Source: Prevotella sp. (GTDB lineage Bacteria; Bacteroidota; Bacteroidia; Bacteroidales; Bacteroidaceae). Taken from it: a stretch of 47,549 bases of DNA. Made by a program: the position numbers and the translations under genes. This document shows positions 2,900 to 25,161 of the stretch, piece by piece; the stretch's first letter is position 1, and each line of letters opens with the position of its first letter. The DNA lies in the NCBI GenBank assembly GCA_017412705.1, contig JAFPWS010000073.1, forward strand, positions 1 to 47,549, read 5' to 3'. A model generated the notes under the pieces. It had not been told where the DNA came from. It saw only the letters and a list, made by a program, of their open reading frames with translations, and did not search any database.

Positions 2900-5620
2900 T
2901 TACTCCTCAACAGCAGCCTGCGCGGCAGCAAGACGGGCAATGGGCACTCTAAACGGAGAGCATGATGCATAGTTCATGCCTATCTTAGCGCAGAACTTAA
3001 CTGAGCTGGGCTCACCACCATGCTCACCACAGATACCGCAACGGAGGTCAGGACGAACCTCGCGACCTTCCTTCACAGCGAACTTGATGAGACGGCCAAC
3101 ACCCTTCTGGTCGAGAACCTGGAACGGGTCAACTTTCAGAATCTTCTTGTCAAGGTAAACAGGCAGGAACGAGGCAATATCGTCACGGCTGTAACCGAAG
3201 GTCATCTGAGTCAGGTCGTTGGTACCGAATGAGAAGTACTGGGCCTCTGTTGCGATACGGTCAGCAGTCAGGGCAGCACGAGGAATCTCAATCATCGTAC
3301 CAATCTCGAACTCAACCTCGATGCCCTCAGCGGCGAAGGTCTCCTTAGCGGCATACTGGATAACATCCTTCTGCTGCTTCAACTCGTACAGCGTACCAAT
3401 CAGCGGAACCATAATCTCAGGCATAGGATTCTTACCTTCCTTCTTCAACTCGCAAGCAGCAGAGAGGATAGCCTTGGTCTGCATAGCCGTGATCTCGGGG
3501 AAGGTGATGCCCAGACGGCAGCCACGGTGTCCCAGCATGGGGTTGTTCTCGGCGAGAGAAGCAACGCGGCGCTGAATGTCCTCCAGAGAAACACCCATCT
3601 CCTTGGCCATGGTCTCCTGACCAGCCAAATCGTGGGGAACAAACTCGTGGAGAGGGGGATCGAGCAGGCGGATGTTGACGGGCAGACCGTCCATAGCCTC
3701 GAGGATACCCTTGAAGTCGGCCTTCTGATAAGGCAGCAGCTTAGCCAGAGCCTTCTCGCGTCCGGCAACGCTGTCAGAGAGAATCATCTCACGCATAGCT
3801 ACAATCTTCTTATCCTCGAAGAACATGTGCTCGGTACGTGTCAGACCGATACCCTTGGCGCCGAAGTCGCGAGCAACCTGTGCATCGTGCGGCGTATCAG
3901 CATTGGTACGAACCTGCAGCTTGGTGTACTTGTCGCAGAGGTCCATCAGCTCCTTGAAGTCGCCACTAAGCTCGGCAGCCTTGGTGGGAACCTCGCCAGC
4001 ATATACCTGACCAGTAGTACCATTCAGGGAAATGTAGTCGCCCTCCTTGTATGTGACGCCGTCAATCTCGACAGTCTTGTCCTTATAGCTAACGTTCAGC
4101 GAACCTACGCCCGATACGCAGCACTTACCCATACCACGAGCCACAACAGCAGCGTGAGAGGTCATACCGCCACGAGCAGTCAGGATACCCTCGGCTGCAG
4201 ACATACCGGCCAGATCCTCAGGAGAGGTCTCGATGCGAACAAGCACAACCTTGTGACCATCCTTGTGCCAATCCTGGGCGTCATCAGCGTGGAACACAAT
4301 CTGACCGCAGGCAGCGCCGGGAGATGCAGGCAGACCCTGAGCGATGACCTTAGCGGTAGTCAGCGCCTTCTTGTCGAAGATGGGGTGCAACAGTTCGTCG
4401 AGCTTCTGAGGCTCGCAGCGCATGATAGCAGTCTTCTCGTCAATCTTACCCTCGTGCAGCAGGTCGATGGCAATCTTCACCATAGCAGCACCAGTACGCT
4501 TACCGTTACGTGTCTGCAGGAACCACAACTTGCCTTCCTGCACGGTGAACTCCATATCCTGCATGTCACGATAGTGCTCCTCGAGCTTCTCCTGGATGCC
4601 GTTCAGCTGCTGATAAATCTCAGGCATAGCCTCCTCCATAGATGGATACTTAGCCACGCGGTCAGCCTCGCTGATACCAGCACGCTCTGCCCAACGCTGA
4701 GAGCCAATCTTGGTAATCTGCTGCGGCGTACGAATACCAGCCACAACGTCCTCGCCCTGAGCATTTACCAGATACTCACCGTTGAACAGGTTCTCACCGT
4801 TAGCGGCATCGCGGCTGAAGCACACACCCGTTGCAGAGGTGTCGCCCATGTTACCGAATACCATAGCCATCACGCTGACAGCAGTACCCCACTCGTCGGG
4901 AATTCCTTCCATCTTACGATACAGGATAGCGCGCTCGTTCATCCAAGAACGGAACACAGCGCAGATGGCGCCCCACAGCTGCTCGATAGGATCGTTGGGG
5001 AAGTCCTTGCCTGTGCGCTCCTTGATGGCAGCCTTGAAGAGCTGAACCAGCTTCTTCAGGTCGTCGACAGAGAGGTCCTTATCCAGCACAACACCGCTCT
5101 CCTTCTTCACCTTCTCGATAATCTCCTCAAACGGATCGATATCGGTCTTGTTTACAGGCTTCATCTCGAGCACCACGTCGCCATACATCTGTACGAAACG
5201 GCGGTAAGAGTCGTACACGAAGTGAGGATTGTTGGTCTTCTTCACCATACCCTCTGCAACCTCGTCGTTCAGACCCAGATTCAGGATGGTATCCATCATA
5301 CCAGGCATTGAGGCACGAGCACCCGAACGTACAGAGACGAGCAAAGGATTCTCCTTGTCGCCGAACTTCGAGTTCATCAGTGTCTCGATGTGCTTAACAG
5401 CAGCCATCACGTCGTCGTTCAGGAGCTCCATAATCTTCTCCTGACCAACCTGATAGTACTCGTTACAGCAGTCTGTAGTGATAGTGAAACCTGGAGGAAC
5501 GGGAACACCAATCAGGTTCATCTCGGCAAGGTTTGCACCCTTACCACCCAGTTCCTCACGCATTTTTGCGTTACCTTCAGCCTTACCATTACCGAAGGTA
5601 TAAACTCTTTTTTGGCTCAT
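2900..5620 (-). CDS. ppdK: Pyruvate, phosphate dikinase
   Basis: A cytosolic enzyme interconverting pyruvate, ATP and phosphate with PEP, AMP and pyrophosphate; in anaerobic Bacteroidales it serves PEP synthesis or pyrophosphate-linked glycolysis. The length of 906 residues is normal. The N-terminal ATP-grasp part opens with KGANLAEM. The phosphohistidine swivel motif GGMTSHA is at 484-490 (His489), and the C-terminal PEP-binding TIM barrel ends with GICGEHGGEPSS. The start (MSQKRVYTFG) matches the usual family start. It is a single-gene unit with its own promoter and terminator, divergent from the antiporter gene. High confidence. Confidence 0.97.
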   Translation of the reverse strand: MSQKRVYTFGNGKAEGNAKMREELGGKGANLAEMNLIGVPVPPGFTITTDCCNEYYQVGQEKIMELLNDDVMAAVKHIETLMNSKFGDKENPLLVSVRSGARASMPGMMDTILNLGLNDEVAEGMVKKTNNPHFVYDSYRRFVQMYGDVVLEMKPVNKTDIDPFEEIIEKVKKESGVVLDKDLSVDDLKKLVQLFKAAIKERTGKDFPNDPIEQLWGAICAVFRSWMNERAILYRKMEGIPDEWGTAVSVMAMVFGNMGDTSATGVCFSRDAANGENLFNGEYLVNAQGEDVVAGIRTPQQITKIGSQRWAERAGISEADRVAKYPSMEEAMPEIYQQLNGIQEKLEEHYRDMQDMEFTVQEGKLWFLQTRNGKRTGAAMVKIAIDLLHEGKIDEKTAIMRCEPQKLDELLHPIFDKKALTTAKVIAQGLPASPGAACGQIVFHADDAQDWHKDGHKVVLVRIETSPEDLAGMSAAEGILTARGGMTSHAAVVARGMGKCCVSGVGSLNVSYKDKTVEIDGVTYKEGDYISLNGTTGQVYAGEVPTKAAELSGDFKELMDLCDKYTKLQVRTNADTPHDAQVARDFGAKGIGLTRTEHMFFEDKKIVAMREMILSDSVAGREKALAKLLPYQKADFKGILEAMDGLPVNIRLLDPPLHEFVPHDLAGQETMAKEMGVSLEDIQRRVASLAENNPMLGHRGCRLGITFPEITAMQTKAILSAACELKKEGKNPMPEIMVPLIGTLYELKQQKDVIQYAAKETFAAEGIEVEFEIGTMIEIPRAALTADRIATEAQYFSFGTNDLTQMTFGYSRDDIASFLPVYLDKKILKVDPFQVLDQKGVGRLIKFAVKEGREVRPDLRCGICGEHGGEPSSVKFCAKIGMNYASCSPFRVPIARLAAAQAAVEE

Positions 5621-12494: not shown

Positions 12495-12532
12495 CAAAGC
12501 TTGGTTGTTTTCCTGTGTGTAGTATAAAAAAG

Positions 12533-12605
12533 AGCGGAAAACGGGACTCGGACCCGCGACCCCAACCTTGGCAAGGTTGTGCTCTACCAACTGAGCTATT
12601 TCCGC
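12533..12605 (-). tRNA. tRNA-Gly(GCC)
   Basis: Cloverleaf: GCGGAAA / TTTCCGC acceptor, D-arm AGCTCAGTTGGTAGAGC, anticodon arm AACCT-TGCCAAGGTT with GCC, T-arm with TCCGAGT, and U73. CCA is not encoded. It is followed by a T-run. It is an identical copy of the gene at 12880-12952 and the last gene in the four-tRNA array. Confidence 0.96.
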
Positions 12606-12826: not shown

Positions 12827-12879
12827 ATTCTTGCCATTAGAACCCAACGTTCTAATGCTCTTTTTTGTTCAACAAGTTG

Positions 12880-12952
12880 AGCGGAAAACGGGACTCGGAC
12901 CCGCGACCCCAACCTTGGCAAGGTTGTGCTCTACCAACTGAGCTATTTCCGC
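12880..12952 (-). tRNA. tRNA-Gly(GCC), second copy
   Basis: Same 72-base body as the copy at 12533-12605. It is the first gene of the minus-strand tRNA array Gly-Leu-Leu-Gly. Confidence 0.96.
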
Positions 12953-13597: not shown

Positions 13598-13617
13598 AGT
13601 TCCTTTTTTTTGCCCTG

Positions 13618-13648
13618 CAAAAGTAACAAAAAACGGTCGAATAGCAAA
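13618..13648 (-). promoter_or_regulatory. Promoter of greA
   Basis: Minus-strand TTTG (plus CAAA 13645-13648), a 19-bp gap, TACTTTTG (plus CAAAAGTA 13618-13625). It stays intact 35 bp from the first island repeat. Confidence 0.7.
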
Positions 13649-13683
13649 AAATTCAGCCCACAAAAGTGCAAAAGCCGTCAAAA

Positions 13684-13711
13684 TGCGGCCAAGCTTAAGA
13701 GACGTTTCGAA
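13684..13711 (+). repeat. Island repeat, copy 1 (R1)
   Basis: A 28-bp sequence of form TGCGGCCAAGC-TTAAG-AGACGTTTCGAA, identical to copy 2 (17841-17868) and 26/28 equal to copy 3 (21601-21628), all in the same direction. Similarity with copy 2 continues about 14 bp further into the island. It contains the overlapping palindromes AAGCTT and CTTAAG and ends in TTCGAA. It lies 26 bp past the kinase stop and marks the island's left border. Confidence 0.85.
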
Positions 13712-13737
13712 ATCTTAGTTTTTGATTGTTGCGCTGT

Positions 13738-14433
13738 TTACTGTTTCCTTTTCGAAGAGTTTGCCCTTGGTGAAAGGCTGTTATATTTATCAACACCGCC
13801 TGTATCGGATGGATAGATGATTGTGTCAATGAAATAAAGATGTCCGTCTCCGCCAACCAGCACGTTGCCGTCAACAGCGTCAAAGATGTCATGCTGTCCA
13901 TTAGTGTAATACGCACCATTGTCCTCAGGACGGAAGCCTAAACGAATAAACTCATCATGAATTTCTTGATTGGTGGCCAAGCGGGCATCGTCAATATATG
14001 GCTGAACCAATATAGCACAAATATGCCCGTCACGATTTTCGGCAAGGCCTATCATTTTATAAGGGCATGCGTCGAAGTATTTATTGTGCGCTTTGATGCG
14101 CTCAAAGAAAGAAGTGAGATTGTCATCAGAGTAGCGGAAATCATTCAGTTTTACAATTTCCTTGGAGTTTGGTGACAAATACACTTCATTTTCAGATCCA
14201 CGATCAATGAAGTCACCAAACTGACTGCGGTCATTAAACCAGCAGCCATGTTCCTCTGCCCATTTACGGAGCCTTACCAGTTGGACAGATTTGCAAGTCG
14301 TTGTTCCCGCAAGAGCCTCAATCTCTTCAAGGACTCTTCGCGCGGCTTCGGATGCTGCATCCAATATGCAACACTCTTCCTCATTTCGGCATTCACCTTC
14401 TTGTGGTAATCGTTCAATACTATCTCCATTCAT
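13738..14433 (-). CDS. Polyvalent-type small protein kinase
   Basis: 231 residues. A kinase-like fold of the small type seen in phage polyvalent proteins and in toxin or defence modules. Visible are a glycine-loop-like GSENEVY (79-85), the ATP-site Lys95 in EIVKLND, the hinge QPYID (144-148), a catalytic-loop equivalent FDAVDGNVLV (184-193, acid plus Asn) and the metal-binding Asp203 in YFIDT. The N-terminal 75 residues are helical. The ATG at 14433 is chosen because a perfect promoter lies at 14458-14489 inside the longer frame. It stands alone as an accessory module, bounded by the shared promoter block and repeat R1. The target is unknown; a regulatory or abortive-infection role is inference. 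Confidence 0.7.
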   Translation of the reverse strand: MNGDSIERLPQEGECRNEEECCILDAASEAARRVLEEIEALAGTTTCKSVQLVRLRKWAEEHGCWFNDRSQFGDFIDRGSENEVYLSPNSKEIVKLNDFRYSDDNLTSFFERIKAHNKYFDACPYKMIGLAENRDGHICAILVQPYIDDARLATNQEIHDEFIRLGFRPEDNGAYYTNGQHDIFDAVDGNVLVGGDGHLYFIDTIIYPSDTGGVDKYNSLSPRANSSKRKQ

Positions 14434-14457
14434 TGAGTCTTTTTGGGTTTGATGCTG

Positions 14458-14489
14458 CAAAGATAGACTTTTTTTTCTTAACTTCCAAA
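14458..14489 (-). promoter_or_regulatory. Promoter of the kinase module
   Basis: Minus-strand TTTG (plus CAAA 14486-14489), a 20-bp gap, TATCTTTG (plus CAAAGATA 14458-14465). The surrounding block 14457-14505 is near-identical outside the spacer to 18575-18624 in front of mntA. Confidence 0.8.
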
Positions 14490-14495
14490 TCTTTG

Positions 14496-14642
14496 CTACT
14501 TTTTCGTCAAGCCATAGAGTTCTCCAACTAAAGGTCGAAGTGTGGTGTTGCAATGATAGACGAGGCGGTCGATGTCCCTGACGATGCCAAATGACAGTGC
14601 CGTCAAGAAAGGCCACCCGTACCAATGTGCTCTCCCTGTCAT
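14496..14642 (-). CDS. Small ORF coupled to the GIY-YIG gene (48 aa)
   Basis: Its ATG overlaps the GIY-YIG stop (ATGA, 14639-14642) and it ends inside the kinase promoter block with -GLTKK and TAG. It contains DIDRLVY followed, after about 11 residues, by ELYGLT. The combined phrase LVY-ELYGLT resembles the common C-terminal tail of restriction-modification proteins, here apparently interrupted. It could be a remnant of a larger subunit, a real micro-protein, or chance. Coupling favours at least some translation. Confidence 0.4.
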   Translation of the reverse strand: MTGRAHWYGWPFLTALSFGIVRDIDRLVYHCNTTLRPLVGELYGLTKK

Positions 14643-15544
14643 TGTTGTAGCCGTTTCTCCAGACATTCCATTTGAGTATTATATGTATAGCCCACTATGC
14701 TGCCATCCATAATTTTCCTAATAATCACATCCACTACTGCCAATGGTACAACAAACCATTCTTTAGGTTGATGGGCTATTCCCATTTCATCATATACCAC
14801 TACTTGGAATTGCACAGCCATCAGTAGTTGATGCACCAAATCCTCAAACTTCTGAGAGTTCAGGTTCACTACCTTATAGGTGGCTACTATCTTAACTGGA
14901 GCCATCAGATAAGTTGGGTCGTTCTCTGCATTAGCAATGCGCTGCTCCACACTATTTGTCGTAAATCCTATCTTATACAGGTTCTTAACCTCCTTGACAT
15001 CCGGGGCATCAGACAGCGAAGACAACACATAGATATAGCCAGTTACATTATCGTCTGTGGCAATATCCGCATTGCTAAAGAATTGGGCATCCGATTCATC
15101 TTGCAGTTCCGATATGGCATAGCCGTCACCTACGACACTCTTACGAAGGGTCTGCAAAAGGATGTCCGACTCGGTGCCATTCTCATAGATACAGCGCGTT
15201 CTGGCATCAGGCAGGAAGTTGCTGCTTCGTTTCAATTCGCCGATCTTCTCTAACAGCAACATCTGTCCACCCACATAATAGAATCTGCCTTCTACGAGAG
15301 TCGCAGTTTTGTTAATCTTCACCAAAGAACGCTTGCCTTCTTTCAGTTCCCTGTGCACTTTGTCAAACAGAGGCTTATAATCCTCAAAGTTCTCACAAAG
15401 AACATGCTGAGCCACGTAGTCGGCCTTTTTCTTGGCAATCACCCTCCGCATATCCTGAGGCATGTCGAAGAGGCTTTGCTCCTCTTCGCTCATCTTCAGC
15501 AGCGGGTCGTCGAATATCGCTTCCAGTTCCTTATCTATGTCCAT
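14639..15544 (-). CDS. GIY-YIG/T5orf172-type nuclease domain protein, main part
   Basis: 301 residues. Residues 1-20 carry KELEAIFDDPLL. A middle region (about 40-130) has VAQHVLCENFEDYKPLF and TRCIYENGTESDILL. The GIY-YIG-like domain (about 168-270) shows GYIYVLSS (169-176), LYKIG (189-193), Arg202, Glu234 and KEWFVVP (261-267), matching the order of the T5orf172/MUG113 branch. Such domains cut or bind DNA. It follows the helicase and a 77-aa ORF in one operon and overlaps that ORF by 10 bp. The two together (77+301) have the length I remember for B. subtilis YeeC-like proteins, so this gene is probably the larger piece of a split protein. Confidence 0.82.
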   Translation of the reverse strand: MDIDKELEAIFDDPLLKMSEEEQSLFDMPQDMRRVIAKKKADYVAQHVLCENFEDYKPLFDKVHRELKEGKRSLVKINKTATLVEGRFYYVGGQMLLLEKIGELKRSSNFLPDARTRCIYENGTESDILLQTLRKSVVGDGYAISELQDESDAQFFSNADIATDDNVTGYIYVLSSLSDAPDVKEVKNLYKIGFTTNSVEQRIANAENDPTYLMAPVKIVATYKVVNLNSQKFEDLVHQLLMAVQFQVVVYDEMGIAHQPKEWFVVPLAVVDVIIRKIMDGSIVGYTYNTQMECLEKRLQQ

Positions 15545-15768
15545 ACTTCAAATCCTTTTTCACGCAGTTTAGTCATCGCTGCATACATCATTCGCTCTTT
15601 CAGGTCGCCATCCTTTCTTGGTTCCCTGCCGTTTTGGACAATCCAGTTGTTCACCTCTGCCAGTTTCTGCTGCATCCTGTCGTTAGCTGTAGGTGCAGCA
15701 GCCTTAGGGCGTACACCTTCCAATAACGGATCATCAAACACTTCTAATAACTCTTTTGGCCATTCCAT
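15535..15768 (-). CDS. N-terminal piece of the GIY-YIG protein (77 aa)
   Basis: It starts 4 bp after the helicase stop (MEWPKELLEVFDDPLLEG) and ends …KGFEVWT, 10 bp inside the GIY-YIG ORF. Its own FDDPLL motif (11-16) is repeated at the start of the GIY-YIG protein, and the rest (DRMQQKLAEVNNWIVQNGREP, then KERMMYAAMTKLRE) resembles the leading region I recall in single-chain relatives. So it looks like the first repeat unit of that protein separated by a frame change. It may still work as a separate subunit. Confidence 0.7.
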   Translation of the reverse strand: MEWPKELLEVFDDPLLEGVRPKAAAPTANDRMQQKLAEVNNWIVQNGREPRKDGDLKERMMYAAMTKLREKGFEVWT

Positions 15769-15772
15769 GATA

Positions 15773-17782
15773 TTAACCCTCAAATTCTAATCCATTCACT
15801 TTTCTTTGTTTCAAATTCCACATTTTTACAAAAGCTACTGCCAGTTCCCTTACCTTTGGGTCGGGGTCATCCACAGAGGGCACCTTGCCATCATGCGCTG
15901 CCACCCATTCTTTCAGCGGTCCTTTAAAGAGCATGATGGCTTGCTCCAGCGTCATGTCGTATTTCTGCTCAGCGATGGTATCCTGGATTACTTTCAGCGT
16001 CTTGGCATCTACAGATTTCGAGATGACCTCGTATGCTCGCTGGAAAGGATTGATGGTGTCAATCAGGTTGATGCTCAGCTTGTCGATGTTGATAAACCGG
16101 TTGGCAATCTTTATCAGCCTGTTACCTTCGCTCGGCTGTTCATCGTCAGTAATCGTTGATATGGGATTGCCCTTTTCGTCAACAATATCATTTCCCTTGA
16201 TAATCGTGTCGAGCAGCACCCGCTGGCGAACCTCTTCCACCTCGACATCGCTCAACTCCGGGTAACGCTCACGTATCACTTTGGGTATCAGGTGCTGGGT
16301 AATGGTCTCTGCCGTTGTCGAGCCGCTGAGTGCTTTCACCACCATATCGTCTTGCAGGATGGCTGCCTTCAGGTCGTCGAGCTGACTCTCCACGATGGTC
16401 TTGGTCTTCACGCTCGATAGCGGTTTCAGTCCTTCCACCACAATGGTACGCGACAAGTCTTCCTCTGGCTCTACATCATCCTTTACCGTCTTGAACTTCC
16501 AGCTGGGCGCCATTACCTGCTCCATCAGCAGCGATGCTGTGATGGCTTTCAGAAAGTCATTTACAGCCACCTTCACCTCTGCCTGCTCTGCCTCTGGCAT
16601 CGCTATCATATTCACAAATCGTGCCGTTTCCTTACCCTCGCAGTCACGTGTACACCTTCCGATAATCTGTATCACCTCTGTCAGCGAACCACGCACGCCA
16701 ACGGTCAGACACATCTCGCACCATTGCCAGTCGAAACCCTCTTTGGCTGTACCCAAAGCAATGATAATATCAACATCGTCACGATGCTGAACGTTTTGCA
16801 GATATGCTTGCACCATATTTCGCTCCTTCTGCTCATCTTCCACGAGGTCGGCCACTTTCAGCATCCTGCCGTCAGCAGTTCTGACGTAATAGATGCCTGT
16901 ATTATAATCCTTATGATCCAGCGTGCCTATCACCCTCATAATCTCGGCTGTCTCTTGATATTTGCCCAAGCCAGTAGCCGCCCGCTGGTTAACGCTGGGA
17001 ATATGGATGATGGTCTTTTTCCTTGTATCCAGAACCTCACCGATATGATCCAGATACGAACCATGATAGAAGTGATAGCCAAGAATAAGATTCTTCAGAT
17101 ACTTATAGCCGTTCAACTGCTGATAGTAGTTATAGGTAATGGGATAGAACCTGGCTTCATCTTCTGCCCTCAATACTGGTATGCCGTCACCACGGAAATA
17201 GGAACCCGTCATCGCCACGATATGCCCTGTTGAGTTGTTCATTACGCGGCGTACCACATCGCCCAGATTAGAGTTAGCATCGGCACTGGTATGGTGGAAC
17301 TCGTCGATGGCCAGCAGCACATCGTTGAAGGTGTCGTCATTCAGCTCTTTTGTAGCATTACGCAGGGTGGCATGGGCACAAACCAACACCTTGGCCTTGC
17401 TGCTTAGAAAGAACTCCTTGAATCGTCCCTTCTTGTCCTGTTCGTTCTTGACGTCCGTCAGGTTGAAATACGTGGGAACTTCCCAGTTGGCAAAGAATCC
17501 GCCACTCATCAGATTGGTGTTCTTAAACGAGCGGCCTATGCTCTTTTCCGGCACAGCTACTACCACCTTCTTGATGCCTTGGTTTACTAACTTATCCAAG
17601 GCAATAAACATCAGCGCACGGCTCTTGCCTGAGGCTGGCGGTGCCTTGATCAGCAAAAACCTCTTGTCGCGAGCCTCGTAGGCCAAAGCCTGCATCTCGC
17701 GCATACCTAAAGCGTTGACGGCCGTAGCCGCCCCCGTCTGTTGATAGCTTATATCAACAATACTGTTGCTAAATTGCTCCAT
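15773..17782 (-). CDS. SF2 DEAD/DEAH-type helicase of a restriction-like system
   Basis: 669 residues. RecA domain 1 has Walker A APPASGKS (47-54), motif II DEFH (160-163) and motif III MTGS (191-194). Domain 2 has ALGTAKEGFDW (343-352) and motif VI QIIGRCTRD (372-380). A C-terminal region of about 270 residues has no motif I know. It resembles helicase/translocase subunits that pair with GIY-YIG proteins and MmeI/YeeA-like methyltransferases (B. subtilis YeeB, from memory). The ATG at 17782 directly follows a 12-bp stem-loop; a TTG at 17815 would add 11 residues and lie in that hairpin's loop. It drives a helicase-77aa-GIY-YIG operon. Confidence 0.85.
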   Translation of the reverse strand: MEQFSNSIVDISYQQTGAATAVNALGMREMQALAYEARDKRFLLIKAPPASGKSRALMFIALDKLVNQGIKKVVVAVPEKSIGRSFKNTNLMSGGFFANWEVPTYFNLTDVKNEQDKKGRFKEFFLSSKAKVLVCAHATLRNATKELNDDTFNDVLLAIDEFHHTSADANSNLGDVVRRVMNNSTGHIVAMTGSYFRGDGIPVLRAEDEARFYPITYNYYQQLNGYKYLKNLILGYHFYHGSYLDHIGEVLDTRKKTIIHIPSVNQRAATGLGKYQETAEIMRVIGTLDHKDYNTGIYYVRTADGRMLKVADLVEDEQKERNMVQAYLQNVQHRDDVDIIIALGTAKEGFDWQWCEMCLTVGVRGSLTEVIQIIGRCTRDCEGKETARFVNMIAMPEAEQAEVKVAVNDFLKAITASLLMEQVMAPSWKFKTVKDDVEPEEDLSRTIVVEGLKPLSSVKTKTIVESQLDDLKAAILQDDMVVKALSGSTTAETITQHLIPKVIRERYPELSDVEVEEVRQRVLLDTIIKGNDIVDEKGNPISTITDDEQPSEGNRLIKIANRFINIDKLSINLIDTINPFQRAYEVISKSVDAKTLKVIQDTIAEQKYDMTLEQAIMLFKGPLKEWVAAHDGKVPSVDDPDPKVRELAVAFVKMWNLKQRKVNGLEFEG

Positions 17783-17783
17783 A

Positions 17784-17825
17784 AGAATATCTTTTCTGTC
17801 AGCGCCATTCCTCAAAAGATATTCT
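17784..17825 (-). promoter_or_regulatory. Perfect 12-bp stem-loop at the helicase start codon
   Basis: AGAATATCTTTT (17784-17795) and AAAAGATATTCT (17814-17825) are exact reverse complements with an 18-nt loop. In the mRNA the helicase ATG begins one base after the stem. This could control translation of the helicase operon or be part of the R2 recombination region. Confidence 0.65.
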
Positions 17826-17840
17826 CGACGTTTGTCTGTC

Positions 17841-17868
17841 TGCGGCCAAGCTTAAGAGACGTTTCGAA
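17841..17868 (+). repeat. Island repeat, copy 2 (R2)
   Basis: Identical over 28 bp to R1, same direction. It lies 22 bp past the hepT stop, between that gene and the helicase hairpin. Like R1 it is followed on the island side by a TCTTA-T-run segment. Confidence 0.85.
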
Positions 17869-17889
17869 TTCTTATTTTTGTTACGCTAT

Positions 17890-18285
17890 TTATTTTGTAA
17901 TGTCCAACATTTCAATAAAACTATCTATAGCTTTTTTTAGTGGAGTTATTTCATTCGTTATAATCCAAAGCACTTGGGCAGGATCGACATCGAAATAGTG
18001 ATGCGAAATAATATCCCTCATACCTTTCACTTGTTTCCAAGGGATTGACGGATAGGTCGGCAACAATCTACCCTCTGTAACCTTATCCAGATTCTTTAAA
18101 CTCTCTCCTATGGCAATCAAAAGCATACATGTGGCATCCAACAATATCATACCATCAGAAGATCCAAGGAAATCATCGACTTCATGAATTCTTTCAGTTC
18201 TTTCTTGTAGTCTTTCTATTGCTGACTGGATATCACAAAGGATATCAAGTGCAAGACTCTTTTGTTCAGAAGACAGTGACTCCAT
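17890..18285 (-). CDS. HepT-like HEPN RNase toxin
   Basis: 131 residues, all helical. It carries the HepT active-site signature RX4HXY in MRDIISHHY (Arg90, His95, Tyr97 counted from the ATG at 18285; a TTG three codons earlier is also possible). Known HepT toxins cut RNA, some at tRNA, and are silenced when MntA adenylylates the signature Tyr. Its start overlaps the mntA end by 20 bp, so the pair is translationally coupled. Repeat R2 follows immediately. Confidence 0.88.
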   Translation of the reverse strand: MESLSSEQKSLALDILCDIQSAIERLQERTERIHEVDDFLGSSDGMILLDATCMLLIAIGESLKNLDKVTEGRLLPTYPSIPWKQVKGMRDIISHHYFDVDPAQVLWIITNEITPLKKAIDSFIEMLDITK

Positions 18286-18559
18286 CTCTTTCAATGCGTT
18301 TTCTTAATCTTGGGTTCAGATTGCGGTGATTACGTACGATGTCTACAGACCGACCAGTAGATTTCTCAAGATACTCTTTGGCTTCCATTAGAAGAAATGG
18401 ATTGGGAGTTAATGTCTCCACAAACACATCCACATCACTGCTTTCTCTTTGTTCATCTCTCGCTGTTGACCCAAAAAGCCGCAATGACGTGATGCCGTAA
18501 ACACTCCTCAGAGTTTCACTACAAGTTCTCAGCAAATCAATACATTCTTTCCTTGACAT
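18266..18559 (-). CDS. MntA-like nucleotidyltransferase antitoxin
   Basis: 97 residues, a minimal nucleotidyltransferase with the canonical GSX10DXD motif (Gly30-Ser31 … Asp42-Val43-Asp44) and a third acid in RSVDIV. MntA antitoxins transfer AMP to the Tyr of the partner HepT. It has its own perfect promoter inside the tail of the methyltransferase gene, so the pair can be expressed apart from the rest of the island. Confidence 0.88.
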   Translation of the reverse strand: MSRKECIDLLRTCSETLRSVYGITSLRLFGSTARDEQRESSDVDVFVETLTPNPFLLMEAKEYLEKSTGRSVDIVRNHRNLNPRLRKRIERDGVTVF

Positions 18560-18575
18560 ATCCTATATTTGGTTG

Positions 18576-18607
18576 CAAAGATAGGCATTATATCTGAAAC
18601 TTCCAAA
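18576..18607 (-). promoter_or_regulatory. Promoter of the mntA-hepT module
   Basis: Minus-strand TTTG (plus CAAA 18604-18607), a 20-bp gap, TATCTTTG (plus CAAAGATA 18576-18583). The flanking block 18575-18624, including GAAAAAGT over the methyltransferase stop codon, matches the kinase promoter block. Confidence 0.8.
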
Positions 18608-18614
18608 TCTTTTG

Positions 18615-21401
18615 TCACTTTTTCGCTGCCGTCAGATGACTGGTGCTCACCGTCATCTTTTCGTAGAGCTTGAACAGACATTCCAGGCGGGCTTCGTCTG
18701 AGGCGAAGGGATAACCAGGATAGCAACTCTCCACGATGTCATCCAGTTTGGCATGAGCCTCGCGCAAATCCTGTGGCATCTTGTCTGGATCATACAGTTC
18801 TGCCAAAGTCTTCTCTGGGTAATACTCACGGGTTATTAATACGTCTTCTGCGGCTGATTCTATTTCCTGCTTCTTCTCGTCAGAGATTTTGGGGAAGGGG
18901 AAGGTGTTGTAGCAAAGTTGGGCGGAATAACGAATACGAGATTCTAACTTTCCTGATGTAGCCTTTGTCCATAGAATATGTATCCTTGAAGTTATTATAC
19001 CGAAGTCAACTGTAGTCGCATTATAAATAGCAAAAGCAGAGTAATACACTACTGTTCCCTCTGACACAAACCCCATTGGGATATATTCTCTCCGTTCCGA
19101 AGAAACAACAGGAATAACTAATGCTTCATTTTCTCTATATCTATTCTCTGCAAATTTATAAGGAACTGATGCTAATCGTTTTGTAACTTCCTTTTTACTA
19201 GCTAGACGCATTTGCTTAACCATCTCAAATCTACTAGCAAACTGAGGAATAGAATTGGCCTCTGGATAATCGTTATCGTTAACCCAAATACAATATCTCT
19301 TTTCGCCATTAATCAACTCCTGTGCGCCAATAAAACTCTTTATATACTTTTGAGCATATGGATAATCATTGATAATTGAATCTTTCTCCACGTCATACAG
19401 AGTAAGATTGTTGTCATCCGCAGGCAAACTACCTTTTAGCATTGGTTTTAATCCAGAGATGCTTTTTGTTTGAGAATTAATTAGTGCAGATTGTTTGCTT
19501 GTTATAGTGGGGCTAATTTTATCAACGATAATGGAACTATCTGCGTCATAAATTACTCTCTGTCTTTTTAAACTGTTGCAACCAACACCAATAATAACAC
19601 ATGAAACACCAGCATTATACTTTGCATTATTTGACCACGGGAAAGTAGTATATGCAAATAGTATATCTTGGTTTAATTCATAAATAGGCTCCCACATTAT
19701 TGGTATTTGCGATCCTTGAGTTATAGAATTTGTACTTACGAATGCAAATGATGTATTTATGTTGTTTTGACAATATTTTGCTGCTTTATAAAACCAACTA
19801 CAAATATAATCAAGAACTCCATGCTGAATATCACCAAAAGCAATATTCATATCTTTCTTTTGTTCACTATTCTGATTCCTACTCCCCAAATACGGCGGAT
19901 TGCCAAAGATAAACACTTCTTCATCTTGGGTATGCGGACAAACTGCGTTCCAGTCGAGGCGGCAGGCATTGCCACAGACGATTTGGGTGATGTTCTTCAA
20001 AGGGAGGGCCTTGGTGTTGACGCCAAAGTTCTCGTTGAGCTTGGTGTTCATCTGGTGCTCTGCCAGCCAAAGGCTAAGCATCGCGACCTCATGAGGGAAA
20101 TCGAGCAACTCAATGCCGTAGAACTGGCTGAGGCTGATGACGCTATTGTCTACAAACAGGATTTCACCCTCTGGCGTACATTTGCGCTGTAAGGCGAGGA
20201 TATCCATTTCGAGGAAACGCAGGCACTTATAGGTGATAATCAGGAAGTTGCCACTACCGCAAGCAGGGTCGAAGAACTTCATGCGGCTCATGCGCTTCAA
20301 CAGGGCATCACCTTTCTTCTTTATCTGTTTGCATTCTTCATAGAACTGCTTTGTAGTCAGCGCGCCAATCTCCTTCATCTGCCGCTTCTGCTCGTACTGC
20401 TCGTTCAACTTGTTATACTCCCCTCGCAGCTCATCCAAGAACAGCGGATTAATCACTTTCATGATGTTAGGCACGCTGGTATAGTGCATGCCCTGGTTGG
20501 CTCGTTCCTCTGGGTTCACCACCGCCTGAATCATTGAGCCGAAGATGTCTGGGTTGATGTCCTTCCAATCCAGTTCGCCACACTCGATGATGATACGACG
20601 GGCCTTCTGACCCATCTTGGGAATCTGGATATGTTTCGAGAAAAGGCCGCCATTGACGTAGGGGAACTGCTTGATGATGCTCAGCGTCTCGCGACTGCGC
20701 AGCGACACGTCCATGATATTAAAGGTATGCGCCAGATAATCCGTCAGGTCTGAGCCGTCCTCCTTGGTATATCGCTGGATGCTGCTGGTAAAGAGGTTTT
20801 CCTCGAAGATGCCGGTGTCCTCGGCAAAGAAGCAGAACAGCAGGCGGCTGATGAAGATATTCAAGTCGTGCAGGTCATCATCGCTGCGGAACTCGTTGTA
20901 GCTACGAAGTTCATCGTGCAACTTGGCCAGCTTTTCTGCCGCCTTGATGTCAGCAGGGCTTTCCTCTACATAGTGCACACGCTCCACGTCCATCAGCGGA
21001 TAGAAGAAAGCAAAGTCCGACGGCAGACGCTCCAGCTGGTTTTCGTAAGTATCCTTCTCGCGGAGGTCGTATGCCAAGATTGTTTTTCCATCGCTCACGG
21101 CGATAATTTTGGGAGCAGCCTTCTGCACCTGCGGGTCTTGCTTCAGCCGCTCCAACATGTTCGTCAGTTGGGTTGTAGATGCAGCACGATAGCAGAACAA
21201 GCCCTTGATGAGCAGGCCATCAAAGGTCTTCAGGATTCCTTTACCTTCTTTGTAGCGCTCGATGTCGCGTTCGCTTTTGCCAAAGGAGTAGAGCAGCCAA
21301 TATGCTATCTCTATACTCCCCTCGCCCCTTGGAGAGGGGTTGGGGGTGAGGCTTAATCTTGCCTCTATCTCCCTATAGCCAAGTTGCAGTTTCTTTGCCA
21401 T
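18615..21401 (-). CDS. MmeI/YeeA-like N6-adenine DNA methyltransferase
   Basis: 928 residues. The SAM motif FDPACGSGNF (377-386) is followed by the catalytic NPPY (501-504), the gamma order of type IIG enzymes, with a helical spacer (about 170-330) before and a target-recognition region (about 550-830) after. Length and layout match MmeI. In the MmeI nuclease position (about 60-75, FDGLLIKGLFCYRAAST) the acid at 61 remains but no ExK follows, so cleavage activity is probably missing. It should methylate adenine at a specific site. It heads the island; the helicase and GIY-YIG protein downstream may supply restriction. A REP element is inserted in frame at residues 16-29. DNA at 18.95-19.9 kb is clearly AT-richer than both ends. 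Confidence 0.88.
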   Translation of the reverse strand: MAKKLQLGYREIEARLSLTPNPSPRGEGSIEIAYWLLYSFGKSERDIERYKEGKGILKTFDGLLIKGLFCYRAASTTQLTNMLERLKQDPQVQKAAPKIIAVSDGKTILAYDLREKDTYENQLERLPSDFAFFYPLMDVERVHYVEESPADIKAAEKLAKLHDELRSYNEFRSDDDLHDLNIFISRLLFCFFAEDTGIFEENLFTSSIQRYTKEDGSDLTDYLAHTFNIMDVSLRSRETLSIIKQFPYVNGGLFSKHIQIPKMGQKARRIIIECGELDWKDINPDIFGSMIQAVVNPEERANQGMHYTSVPNIMKVINPLFLDELRGEYNKLNEQYEQKRQMKEIGALTTKQFYEECKQIKKKGDALLKRMSRMKFFDPACGSGNFLIITYKCLRFLEMDILALQRKCTPEGEILFVDNSVISLSQFYGIELLDFPHEVAMLSLWLAEHQMNTKLNENFGVNTKALPLKNITQIVCGNACRLDWNAVCPHTQDEEVFIFGNPPYLGSRNQNSEQKKDMNIAFGDIQHGVLDYICSWFYKAAKYCQNNINTSFAFVSTNSITQGSQIPIMWEPIYELNQDILFAYTTFPWSNNAKYNAGVSCVIIGVGCNSLKRQRVIYDADSSIIVDKISPTITSKQSALINSQTKSISGLKPMLKGSLPADDNNLTLYDVEKDSIINDYPYAQKYIKSFIGAQELINGEKRYCIWVNDNDYPEANSIPQFASRFEMVKQMRLASKKEVTKRLASVPYKFAENRYRENEALVIPVVSSERREYIPMGFVSEGTVVYYSAFAIYNATTVDFGIITSRIHILWTKATSGKLESRIRYSAQLCYNTFPFPKISDEKKQEIESAAEDVLITREYYPEKTLAELYDPDKMPQDLREAHAKLDDIVESCYPGYPFASDEARLECLFKLYEKMTVSTSHLTAAKK
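21315..21353. repeat. C-rich REP-like element inside the methyltransferase gene
   Basis: The inverted-repeat motif CCCCTCGCCCC … GAGAGGGGTTGGGGG reads in frame as LSLTPNPSPRGEGS. The same phrase is familiar from dispersed intergenic repeats in Bacteroidetes genomes. It interrupts the start of the protein between REIEAR and IEIAYWLLYS without breaking the frame. Confidence 0.75.
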
Positions 21402-21444
21402 AGTTATTGTTGTTTGAGAAAGCGAACGGGATTCGTTCAGAAAC

Positions 21445-21589
21445 GTGAGACACCAGCCAAGCGCATAAAAAGAACGTGGACAGTTTATACTTATCCAACG
21501 TCTCAGGCGCTTGGCCGGTGCCCACAGAATGAGATAAGATAAACGCCCACGCTATCTGCGTGAGCATCCACTTATTTATTCTCATTCTG
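21445..21589 (-). ncRNA. Candidate structured leader RNA: two long stem-loops
   Basis: Read on the minus strand, 21525-21507 pairs with 21464-21445 as a 19-bp stem with one bulge, and its loop holds a second 7-bp stem. Next to it, 21589-21580 pairs with 21534-21525 (10 bp), enclosing a perfect 10-bp stem (21567-21558 with 21552-21543) and an AGATA loop. Several pairs are G-U on the minus strand and would be C-A mismatches on the plus strand, which indicates a minus-strand RNA, co-directional with the methyltransferase. It could be a 5' leader, a separate small RNA or a folded recombination site. Not recognised as a known family. Confidence 0.5.
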
Positions 21590-21600
21590 TTCGTCTATTT

Positions 21601-21628
21601 CGCGGCCAAGCTTAAGAGACGTTTTGAA
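21601..21628 (+). repeat. Island repeat, copy 3 (R3)
   Basis: 26 of 28 positions equal R1/R2 (C for T at the first, T for C in the GTTTTGAA end). Same direction. It marks the right border of the island, 200 bp before the methyltransferase start. An inverted variant with a different 5-bp centre (GCCTG instead of TTAAG) lies at 21497-21517 in the first stem-loop. Confidence 0.85.
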
Positions 21629-21739
21629 TAAAAAGCGTACGCTTCAATTGTTTATACCCTCGAAAATCATGCCGCCACCCTGCACTCAGGGGATATGCCT
21701 TGGCATCACCGTTTACGGCGCGTCAGCGGTATCTGGGGA

Positions 21740-21747
21740 CAAAGGTA
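21740..21747 (-). promoter_or_regulatory. Possible promoter of the island leader
   Basis: TACCTTTG on the minus strand, no good -33 element. It is the only TAnnTTTG box found upstream of the methyltransferase in that direction and would give a leader of about 330 nt covering R3 and both stem-loops. The first 110 nt contain small hairpins (CCCTG-AGTG-CAGGG at 21675-21690; the 12-bp palindrome AAGCGTACGCTT at 21633-21644). Confidence 0.4.
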
Positions 21748-21798
21748 CGAATAAAAAATGAGAATAACGGTGCAAGTGGAAGAAAAAATGCCGGCTTG

Positions 21799-21959
21799 CC
21801 GTCTGGTCAAAGTGGTCAAGGTCAAGATGGTCATTTTCATTTTCGGATTGTGTCATTTGCTCACTATATATAAATATAAATATTTATATTATAGTGGCGA
21901 TTTTGACACATTGAAAAACGATTTTGACCAAATGACCAAATGACCAAATGACCGCACGG
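21799..21959. other. 161-bp dyad with four GGTCA and four TGACC motifs
   Basis: GGTCA occurs at 21805, 21814, 21820 and 21829; TGACC at 21925, 21933, 21941 and 21949, the latter as an 8-bp tandem of TGACCAAA. Both arrays mirror each other about 21879, which is also the centre of an AT-rich palindrome bounded by CACTATA (21862) and TATAGTG (21896). The two 80-bp halves are recognisably inverted copies. It may be a protein-binding array, a large hairpin or a small palindromic element. The rest of 21630-22270 has no supported gene. Confidence 0.6.
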
Positions 21960-24828: not shown

Positions 24829-24848
24829 CCAAAATCGGCTGCAAAGTT

Positions 24849-25122
24849 ACGAATAAGTGAGCAAAGAACAAAATAAATTAGGATTTATTTTTTCTTTCGA
24901 ACGAAAGTAACTTCGAGACAACGTCTCAATGTACGAATAAGTGAGCAAAGAACAAAATAAATTAGGATTTATTTTTTCTTTCGAACGAAAGTAACTTCGA
25001 GGCAGCGCCTCAAAGTACGAATAAGTGAGCAAAGAACAAAATAAATTGGGATTTATTTTTTCTTTCGAACGAAAGTAACTTCGAGACAACGTCTCAAAGT
25101 ACGAATAAGTGAGCAAAGAACC
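24849..25122. repeat. 84-bp tandem repeat, three units plus a partial fourth
   Basis: Units begin at 24849, 24933, 25017 and 25101, each with ACGAATAAGTGAGCAAAGAA. Every full unit carries a CTTTCG-AA-CGAAAG palindrome and a small hairpin, GAGAC-AAC-GTCTC in units 1 and 3 and GAGGC-AGC-GCCTC in unit 2. The paired base change keeps the stem. The array fills the gap between tRNA-Arg and the susC promoter. The open frame across it is an artefact of the period being divisible by three. Confidence 0.85.
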
Positions 25123-25161
25123 AAAAGAAAGGGAATTTTCTTTTGTTTCATAAAAAATTAG

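Follow-up and report, generated by a model that had tools for sequence, protein, structure and literature searches.

The question raised by this locus is why one 28-nucleotide (nt) sequence recurs three times, in direct orientation, within a single restriction island. The window analysed here is the whole stretch of 47,549 nt from Prevotella sp. (assembly GCA_017412705.1, contig JAFPWS010000073.1), and the three copies, hereafter R1, R2 and R3, lie on its minus strand at positions 13684–13711, 17841–17868 and 21601–21628, respectively. An earlier, sequence-only reading of this DNA had located them correctly, with the first two identical over 28 nt and the third matching at 26 of 28 positions, and had taken the repeat for the closing end of mobile gene cassettes. 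Based on the sequence comparisons described here, we consider it probable that R is instead strand S1 of a bistable leader RNA controlling restriction-modification (RM) operons. The data point to a repeat that is one strand of a folded leader found before many unrelated restriction operons, and that was recopied where a module slotted in.

The island is an operon in which a type IIG/MmeI-type methyltransferase, a cargo slot, a helicase, an 82-amino-acid (aa) protein and a T5orf172 protein follow each other on one strand. Read along the minus strand, the full order is R3, leader, IIG enzyme, mntA, hepT, R2, helicase, 82-aa protein, T5orf172, a 36-codon fragment, Kinase-PolyVal and R1; greA comes next. 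Although the copies had been described as closing modules, R2 and R3 stand equally in front of genes, the helicase and the methyltransferase. The 23-nt core of R, allowing up to 3 mismatches, has only three matches in the 3.42-Mb genome assembly, all in the island, and a reversed control pattern has none in the same scan. R is matched in 15 of 200 sampled same-genus genomes (its own included in both numbers), one of which, L015 (the prefix L designates the loci compared), has 3 mismatches. An exact scan of species-representative contigs returned 40 stretches, whose titles name Prevotellaceae, Prevotella, Xylanibacter ruminicola, Bacteroidaceae or Bacteroidales, many with rumen isolate names. 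L015 apart, the matches correspond to this island type and to apparent remnants of it, and not to a dispersed repeat unlinked to defence. By their flanks, most copies belong to two position classes, an R3 type before the methyltransferase and an R2 type before the helicase. Three simple identities for R were rejected: a dispersed repeat (just 3 genome copies), a promoter (R has no TAnnTTTG, and the −7 box lies far upstream of R3) and a terminator (a T-run is absent at R).

The TAnnTTTG motif, which we take to be the Bacteroidetes −7 box, occurs for the methyltransferase transcript at 21740–21747 (minus strand; TACCTTTG), ~110 nt upstream of R3; R3 should therefore be inside the RNA. Here a structured leader, probably transcribed, extends over positions 21482–21631 of the same strand (covariance-model match of 135.9 bits, the sequence itself being part of the model). 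An alignment of 26 leaders shows a conserved fold that begins with R3 as its 5′ strand, S1, and in which the arm B hairpin (21525–21595) and strand S2 (21490–21523), complementary to S1, come next. S2 is complementary also to a downstream strand, S3 (21442–21464), which, judging from folding and duplex energies, would compete with S1 for it. S1 to S3 span ~190 nt, a terminator-like hairpin lies between S2 and S3, and the segment 21400–21660 has a minimum free energy of −101.1 kcal/mol (z −8.3).

The secondary structure is conserved with compensatory changes. In the outer stem of arm B, 7 pairs are changed on both sides with pairing kept, and 10 such pairs exist in the whole fold (26 leaders). 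When 18 leaders were aligned by sequence only, we counted 65 double-changed pair cells vs. 19.1 in shuffles, none of 500 being as high; in this alignment, sliding the pair partners destroys the pairing, and double changes are present in 11 of the 14 S1:S2 pairs. Eleven relatives without R have the identical architecture written in other letters (e.g., L084, z −6.7). Their mean S1:S2 duplex energy is −25.6 kcal/mol within a leader and −15.7 across leaders, while the corresponding values for S2:S3 are −34.7 and −24.9; the own means were summed from pairwise matrices, and some close relatives in the group make the cross-leader values come out stronger. Although S3 is outside the covariance model, S2:S3 pairing reaches z < −3 in 66 of 80 leader copies (30 mononucleotide shuffles each). 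Among the 14 exceptions, 7 precede non-RM genes, 6 precede RM or defence genes and 1 (L186) ends at the contig edge. Searches of Rfam 15 at E ≤ 1 gave two sub-threshold matches elsewhere in 13600–21900 and zero at the leader, and zero matches in nine leader loci. In L131–L142, conservation seems to extend over the ~80 nt from promoter box to element (with a CCTCAGNGGAGG-like hairpin and GAGGGTAA), so that the leader is probably larger than modelled.

The distribution of the leader was surveyed with a covariance model of S1, arm B and S2 (short calibration, hence rough E-values). Counting the genome of the window in each case, the model finds 5 copies in that genome, the window's included, and copies in 129 of 200 same-genus genomes, both at E ≤ 0.01; at E ≤ 0.001 it has matches in 47 of 198 genomes of the order, in 41 of 151 genera, with up to 14 in one genome of other families. 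We fetched 80 copies outside R islands (3 weaker own-genome copies, 17 strong ones and 60 further down in rank order) from the top of the 200-genome match list, where island copies were passed over, as were several at contig ends and a few others. The downstream gene, defined as the longest same-strand open reading frame (ORF) of at least 90 aa starting within 500 nt, could be assigned for 79 of the 80 (L186 has none). The 76 first genes from other genomes were clustered, and the clusters were labelled from family tallies, not per member; on these Pfam/PADLOC tallies, 66 of the 76 are RM or defence genes. They comprise SNF2/PLD helicases (16), EcoRI-type methyltransferases (16), a second type II methyltransferase family (16), IIG/Eco57I-like (6), HsdM-like (4) and type III-like methyltransferases (3), in addition to single genes for a D12 methyltransferase (L141), a methyltransferase (L198), a Tsp45I restriction enzyme (L144), ResIII (L165) and NERD (L190). 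As a control, 71 long ORFs upstream of these loci were searched: RM families are absent from the top 25 in both databases, with no methyltransferase or SNF2 family there for Pfam (77 families in all, E ≤ 1e-5), and with PDC-S05, PDC-S23 and SoFic, each of 3–4 members, for PADLOC (74 in all, E ≤ 1e-10). TAnnTTTG is present within 160 nt upstream of 67 of 76 elements for which that length of upstream DNA is available, against an expectation of 0.055 per 160 nt derived from the loci's own upstream DNA, and the start codon follows the end of the element at a median of 86.5 nt (60–95 nt in 59 of 76). Relative to the coding gene that follows, the element thus has a fixed orientation and distance, and a promoter precedes it.

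The cargo varies in the slot between methyltransferase and helicase (slot 1). A helicase search without R as bait found the gene in 37 of 398 same-genus genomes; these loci and the R-bearing contigs were fetched, and the 49 (window included) in which a single contig covers both the end of the methyltransferase and the start of the helicase were tabulated. Outside this table stand L064, L067 and L072, read as remnants, and L065, L069, L076 and L118, in which the methyltransferase or helicase end is off the contig; L119, from a different contig, was not used either. Of the 49 slots, 8 are empty (gap of 1–24 nt), 24 carry cargo on the same strand as the operon, 16 carry it on the opposite strand, and 1 (L096) has no clear gene; the empty operons have neither R2 nor its 55–60-nt flank. 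With one representative searched per family, Pfam identifies the same-strand cargos as mntA-hepT, two Kinase-PolyVal types, DUF6169, RhuM, BroN-RhuM, DUF1016/YhcG and SLFN-AlbA2, and the opposite-strand ones as YoeB and PIN. By eye we recognised a two-gene cargo resembling ParE-type modules, for which Pfam gives no match, and, on the opposite strand, further VapC-, YoeB-, RelE- and GNAT-like modules and two antitoxin-only remnants. Many of the cargos are toxin-antitoxin-like. On a helicase tree of 50 tips (rows with fewer than 550 aligned residues or without a cargo label were dropped), the cargo labels, assigned by the analyst and partly by eye, need at least 30 changes, a count made without a shuffled control. 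The interchangeable modules are therefore real, and small modules such as the kinase and mntA-hepT change independently of the island core, as had been proposed. For instance, well-supported branches unite L108 (DUF6169) with two kinase loci, L065 and L104, and L070 (DUF6169) with the kinase locus L089. The slot data describe a restriction operon in which exchangeable toxin-antitoxin-like modules have a standard site.

Some loci show further arrangements. In L142, a toxin-antitoxin-like pair (by eye) stands between the methyltransferase and helicase of another restriction system and is absent in L147, which is the same slot habit in an unrelated system. L111 has a kinA module upstream of R3, before the methyltransferase leader (4566–5274, operon orientation), while its slot 1 holds other cargo besides. 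In L075, a methyltransferase 3′ tail of 62 codons, 95% identical to that of the window, is found between the full gene plus ~600 nt and the kinase, and is a tandem or layered insertion.

R2 (17841–17868) is, from its sequence, flank alignment and tree distribution, an extra S1 copy in the helicase leader. It has no local complement, and its duplex with S2 has −32.2 kcal/mol, equal to that of R3 with S2. In 19 of 22 loci R2 lies 81–88 nt before the aligned helicase start, and homology continues for ~55–60 nt past it, up to that start. Within the clade of R-bearing loci (R clade), R2 is present in 22 of 22 loci with same-strand cargo vs. 0 of 7 with an empty or opposite-strand slot (Fisher 6.4e-7); in these 7, the best operon-strand match has at least 10 mismatches in 23. 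In the loci also found by the helicase search, the 23-mer has 0 mismatches at R2 in 12 of 12 and is unchanged at R3 in 11 of 12, with one mismatch in the remaining one. A hairpin formed by GAATATCTTTT...AAAAGATATTC at 17785–17824 (minus strand) stands immediately 5′ of the helicase start codon, and its GCGCT loop is able to pair with AGCGY upstream (within 17860–17887). The R2 leader is thereby predicted to have a choice of its own, a long-range fold vs. the hairpin ending at the start codon; no covariation was found for this alternative fold.

R1 (13684–13711) ends a relocated module at 13684–14506 (minus strand), consisting of start block, small ORF, Kinase-PolyVal and R1. From 14506 to 13684 the window aligns with the slot-1 kinase module of L105 at 92.7% identity over 824 positions. 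Since the match stops there on both sides, the two boundaries drawn by the sequence-only reading are real homology boundaries; homology with R2 likewise stops at the last base of R1. A kinase+R unit thus occupies different slots with clean ends. The start block described earlier, GAAAAAGT / AAAGATTTGGAAGTT / TATCTTTGC, can indeed be read at 14505 and 18624; the one of mntA-hepT (18574–18624) is promoter-like and overlaps the methyltransferase stop. The promoter form TTTGGAAGTT-N10-16-TAnnTTTGC has 5 occurrences in the genome, 2 of them in the island, and is thus scarce, not unique. A Lys-Lys-stop ORF does precede the kinase, but it is not T5orf172, which ends in Gln-Gln with its stop at 14639–14641; it is a 36-codon fragment (14496–14606, minus strand) that seems to resemble the C-terminus of another DNA methyltransferase and for which no convincing homologue was found among the fetched loci. 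The greA upstream regions of relatives do not align with the window's greA flank, so that an empty site at greA could not be shown. A possible 6-bp target duplication, TTGACG, was seen by eye at this second slot.

Related units were seen elsewhere. In L067, kinA separates the methyltransferase from the helicase-like genes in what looks by eye like another restriction system, with no R behind the kinase; genes similar to this system in L142 and L147 match PADLOC restriction models. Behind the system, kinB and R accompany an ORF of 75 codons, the end of which shares 94% identity with the tail of the MmeI-type gene; L064 and L072 also look like remnants. We read these cases as modules settling behind methyltransferase genes and as decayed islands; they are no proof of a site-specific cassette.

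Several observations weigh against the leader as we read it. Within the R clade S1 and S2 are nearly invariant, so that pairing is tested just in other lineages, and L082 is an exception, its own S1:S2 duplex (−13.0 kcal/mol) being no better than that with other leaders. The terminator-like hairpin alone leaves an effect of S1 on termination unexplained. Ten of the 76 first genes are not RM or have no identity (three DUF4419, fimbrillin, PAP2, TPR, acyltransferase, DUF2779, L134 and L182), and among the weaker own-genome copies L128 precedes a ResIII protein, while L129 and L130 precede other genes and have no S2:S3 pairing. The control with upstream ORFs covers 25 of the 77 Pfam and 25 of the 74 PADLOC families. 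Among 19 order-level loci read by eye, L208, L209, L215 and L226 precede RM genes, and many outside the genus (L214, L216, L219–L221 and L223–L225) precede secreted proteins, so that the tie of the leader to restriction operons is strong but not exclusive. As for R2, both its presence and same-strand cargo change just twice on the helicase tree, and the 22 of 22 vs. 0 of 7 contrast therefore amounts to about two independent events, of small phylogenetic weight. With fewer than 10 mismatches in 28 as the limit, no extra same-strand S1 copy appears in 20 further leader loci, including L142 with its toxin-antitoxin-like pair between methyltransferase and helicase; R2 is thus a local invention. 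The DUF4419 copies (L197, L200 and L202) were also seen to be without good S2:S3 pairing and are perhaps a related but different leader.

If R were the end by which self-contained modules recombine, inserting themselves site-specifically behind the start block as mobile gene cassettes do, the exact homology of the window kinase and L105 modules from the Lys-Lys-stop block to the last base of R would be expected, and R2 does end four cargo families in five types. The unit seen in L067, a tail of the MmeI-type methyltransferase plus kinB and R that follows a different restriction system, also suits such a mechanism. So do L116 and L117, where R3, methyltransferase, cargo and R2 occur as a set with helicases that branch outside the well-supported clade containing the remaining R loci, a pattern that fits functional coupling or block transfer alike. 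Of the cassette proposal, the modular, exchangeable cargo stands; R as the end of the cassette is quite unlikely. R3 is found before the methyltransferase even without cargo (L109), downstream of the −7 box and within a folded leader; the opposite-strand modules of the R clade have no R2, the homology runs on 55–60 nt past R2, and kinA in L067 has no R. There is no R elsewhere in the genome, so the same end at independent sites is not seen, and, L015 apart, other genomes show the island type and likely remnants, among which we count the copies in L067, L072 and L064. Moreover, Pfam detects no recombinase or integrase among the seven island proteins scanned, the rest of the genome not having been searched. 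Rather doubtful, in turn, is the idea that R2 and R1 are passive scars, S1 having been copied by recombination into the helicase leader and then hitch-hiking with the cargo without function. The two changes on the tree, the 20 leader loci with no second S1 and the position of R1, where the operon has no further gene, agree with it; the 23-mer, however, is unchanged at R2 in 12 of 12 loci while the flanks differ, and R2 holds its 81–88 nt to the helicase start.

A published precedent exists for a repeat serving as a DNA operator. In the RRDM island of enteropathogenic E. coli, DarTG2 is embedded in a type I RM system regulated by RptR, a protein that binds direct repeats with the palindrome TAGCTA in promoter DNA (PMC12255303). 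A comparable repressor acting on R would account for the constancy of the 23-mer at R2 and R3, and in some relatives (L078, L081 and L094, read by eye) a small helix-turn-helix (HTH)/Xre-like gene apparently takes the leader's place. We nevertheless judge an operator very unlikely: R3 lies well downstream of the −7 box, S1 of other lineages is a different sequence with matching S2 and S3, and no regulator gene was seen travelling with R (no systematic search was made). R has no TAGCTA.

The genes of the island, all on the minus strand, are as follows. The methyltransferase gene (18615–21401, 928 aa) has the MmeI methyltransferase, target-recognition and helicase-spacer domains of a type IIG, MmeI-like restriction enzyme (Pfam; PADLOC REase_MTase_IIG, E 2e-290). 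In slot 1, a nucleotidyltransferase gene (18266–18559, Pfam NTP_transf_2), which we take to be mntA with an antitoxin role, is adjacent to a hepT-like ribonuclease gene (17890–18294, Pfam HepT-like). The DEAD/ResIII helicase (15773–17782, 669 aa, Pfam) is followed by the 82-aa protein (15535–15783), conserved by ORF comparison between helicase and T5orf172 and with zero Pfam families at E ≤ 0.001, and by T5orf172 (14639–15544, 301 aa, Pfam), presumably related to GIY-YIG. The Kinase-PolyVal protein (13738–14439, Pfam, E 5.5e-47) is overlapped by a 51-aa ORF (14274–14429), which by its position would be antitoxin-like; in 11 of 11 kinA loci examined an ORF of 50–51 aa lies over the kinase start in another frame, and kinB is likewise accompanied by a 55-aa ORF. 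The overlapping ORF is likely a missed small antitoxin gene, and the kinase start is perhaps later than drawn. Elsewhere in the window, three tandem copies with 84-nt spacing and 91–96% identity stand between two genes at 24848–25144, and an identical tRNA-Gly(gcc) pair (12532–12605 and 12879–12952, minus strand) surrounds two tRNA-Leu genes beside the greA end of the island.

Returning to the proposed bistable leader, its anatomy, covariation, distribution, gene association and promoter signals are observed, and it is from these sequences that we infer an effect on expression, a direction of switching and pairing in trans. S2 would pair with either S1 or S3, and this choice would set the expression of the operon, by attenuation or by start-site masking. 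Restriction systems must protect their own DNA before cutting. A module inserted in slot 1 brings a promoter which would otherwise drive the nuclease arm unchecked; when such a module intervenes, R2 would put the nuclease arm under the same S2 strand via RNA-RNA pairing. Modules may be exchanged by homologous recombination in the conserved flanks, namely the 3′ end of the methyltransferase on one side and R2 with the 5′ end of the helicase on the other, and R1 may mark a kinase+R2 unit moved to the operon end, or what remains of a second operon. As the letters of the strands differ between systems, each system would have a private RNA address. The wider proposal, possible though short of probable, is that a new bistable leader RNA family governs unrelated anti-phage restriction operons across Bacteroidales, with clade-specific extra strand copies acting in trans or in long-range cis, so that module acquisition and the expression of nuclease and methyltransferase would be wired by RNA pairing.

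Cis-acting leader RNAs, attenuators and riboswitches are 5′ leaders with mutually exclusive pairings and a terminator-like hairpin. The island leader shares these pairings and this hairpin; unlike the known ones, it is common to unrelated RM operons, has one strand repeated within the operon and has no relevant Rfam 15 match at E ≤ 1. We found no such leader in open-access literature text or in Rfam 15, the sources on which its novelty rests. Integron attC sites and gene cassettes similarly combine short cargo modules with an imperfect palindromic element; here, in contrast, the island genes include no integrase, the element is an orientation-fixed leader placed in most cases 60–95 nt before a gene, and R2 has no local complement. 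By Pfam the MntA-HepT, Kinase-PolyVal, YoeB, PIN, RhuM, DUF1016/YhcG and DUF6169 cargos are ordinary members, with no differences seen. In a preprint, Payne et al. reportedly use 'guilt-by-embedding' to find defence genes nested in other immune systems; both cases involve a defence operon that takes up variable cargo, of defence or toxin-antitoxin type, while the two orientation classes and the S1 copy added with same-strand cargo distinguish ours. The nearest published case found is the RRDM island with DarTG2 under RptR, where the embedding site is called a potential recombination hotspot (PMC12255303). There too, a toxin-antitoxin pair lies between restriction subunit genes, just before the restriction gene, and direct repeats are tied to operon control; the difference is that RptR is a protein on DNA repeats, whereas the repeat of the present IIG/helicase/T5orf172 system belongs to a folded leader, as one of its RNA strands.

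The regulation of defence operons has been described as largely open (PMC12255303). The reading proposed here accounts for a striking repeat without invoking a new recombinase. If it is true, a single RNA leader architecture before MmeI-type, EcoRI-type, type I, type III and SNF2/PLD-helicase genes would constitute a shared defence control layer in Prevotella-like bacteria, and the leader would offer a sequence handle for new defence operons among the genes downstream of it.

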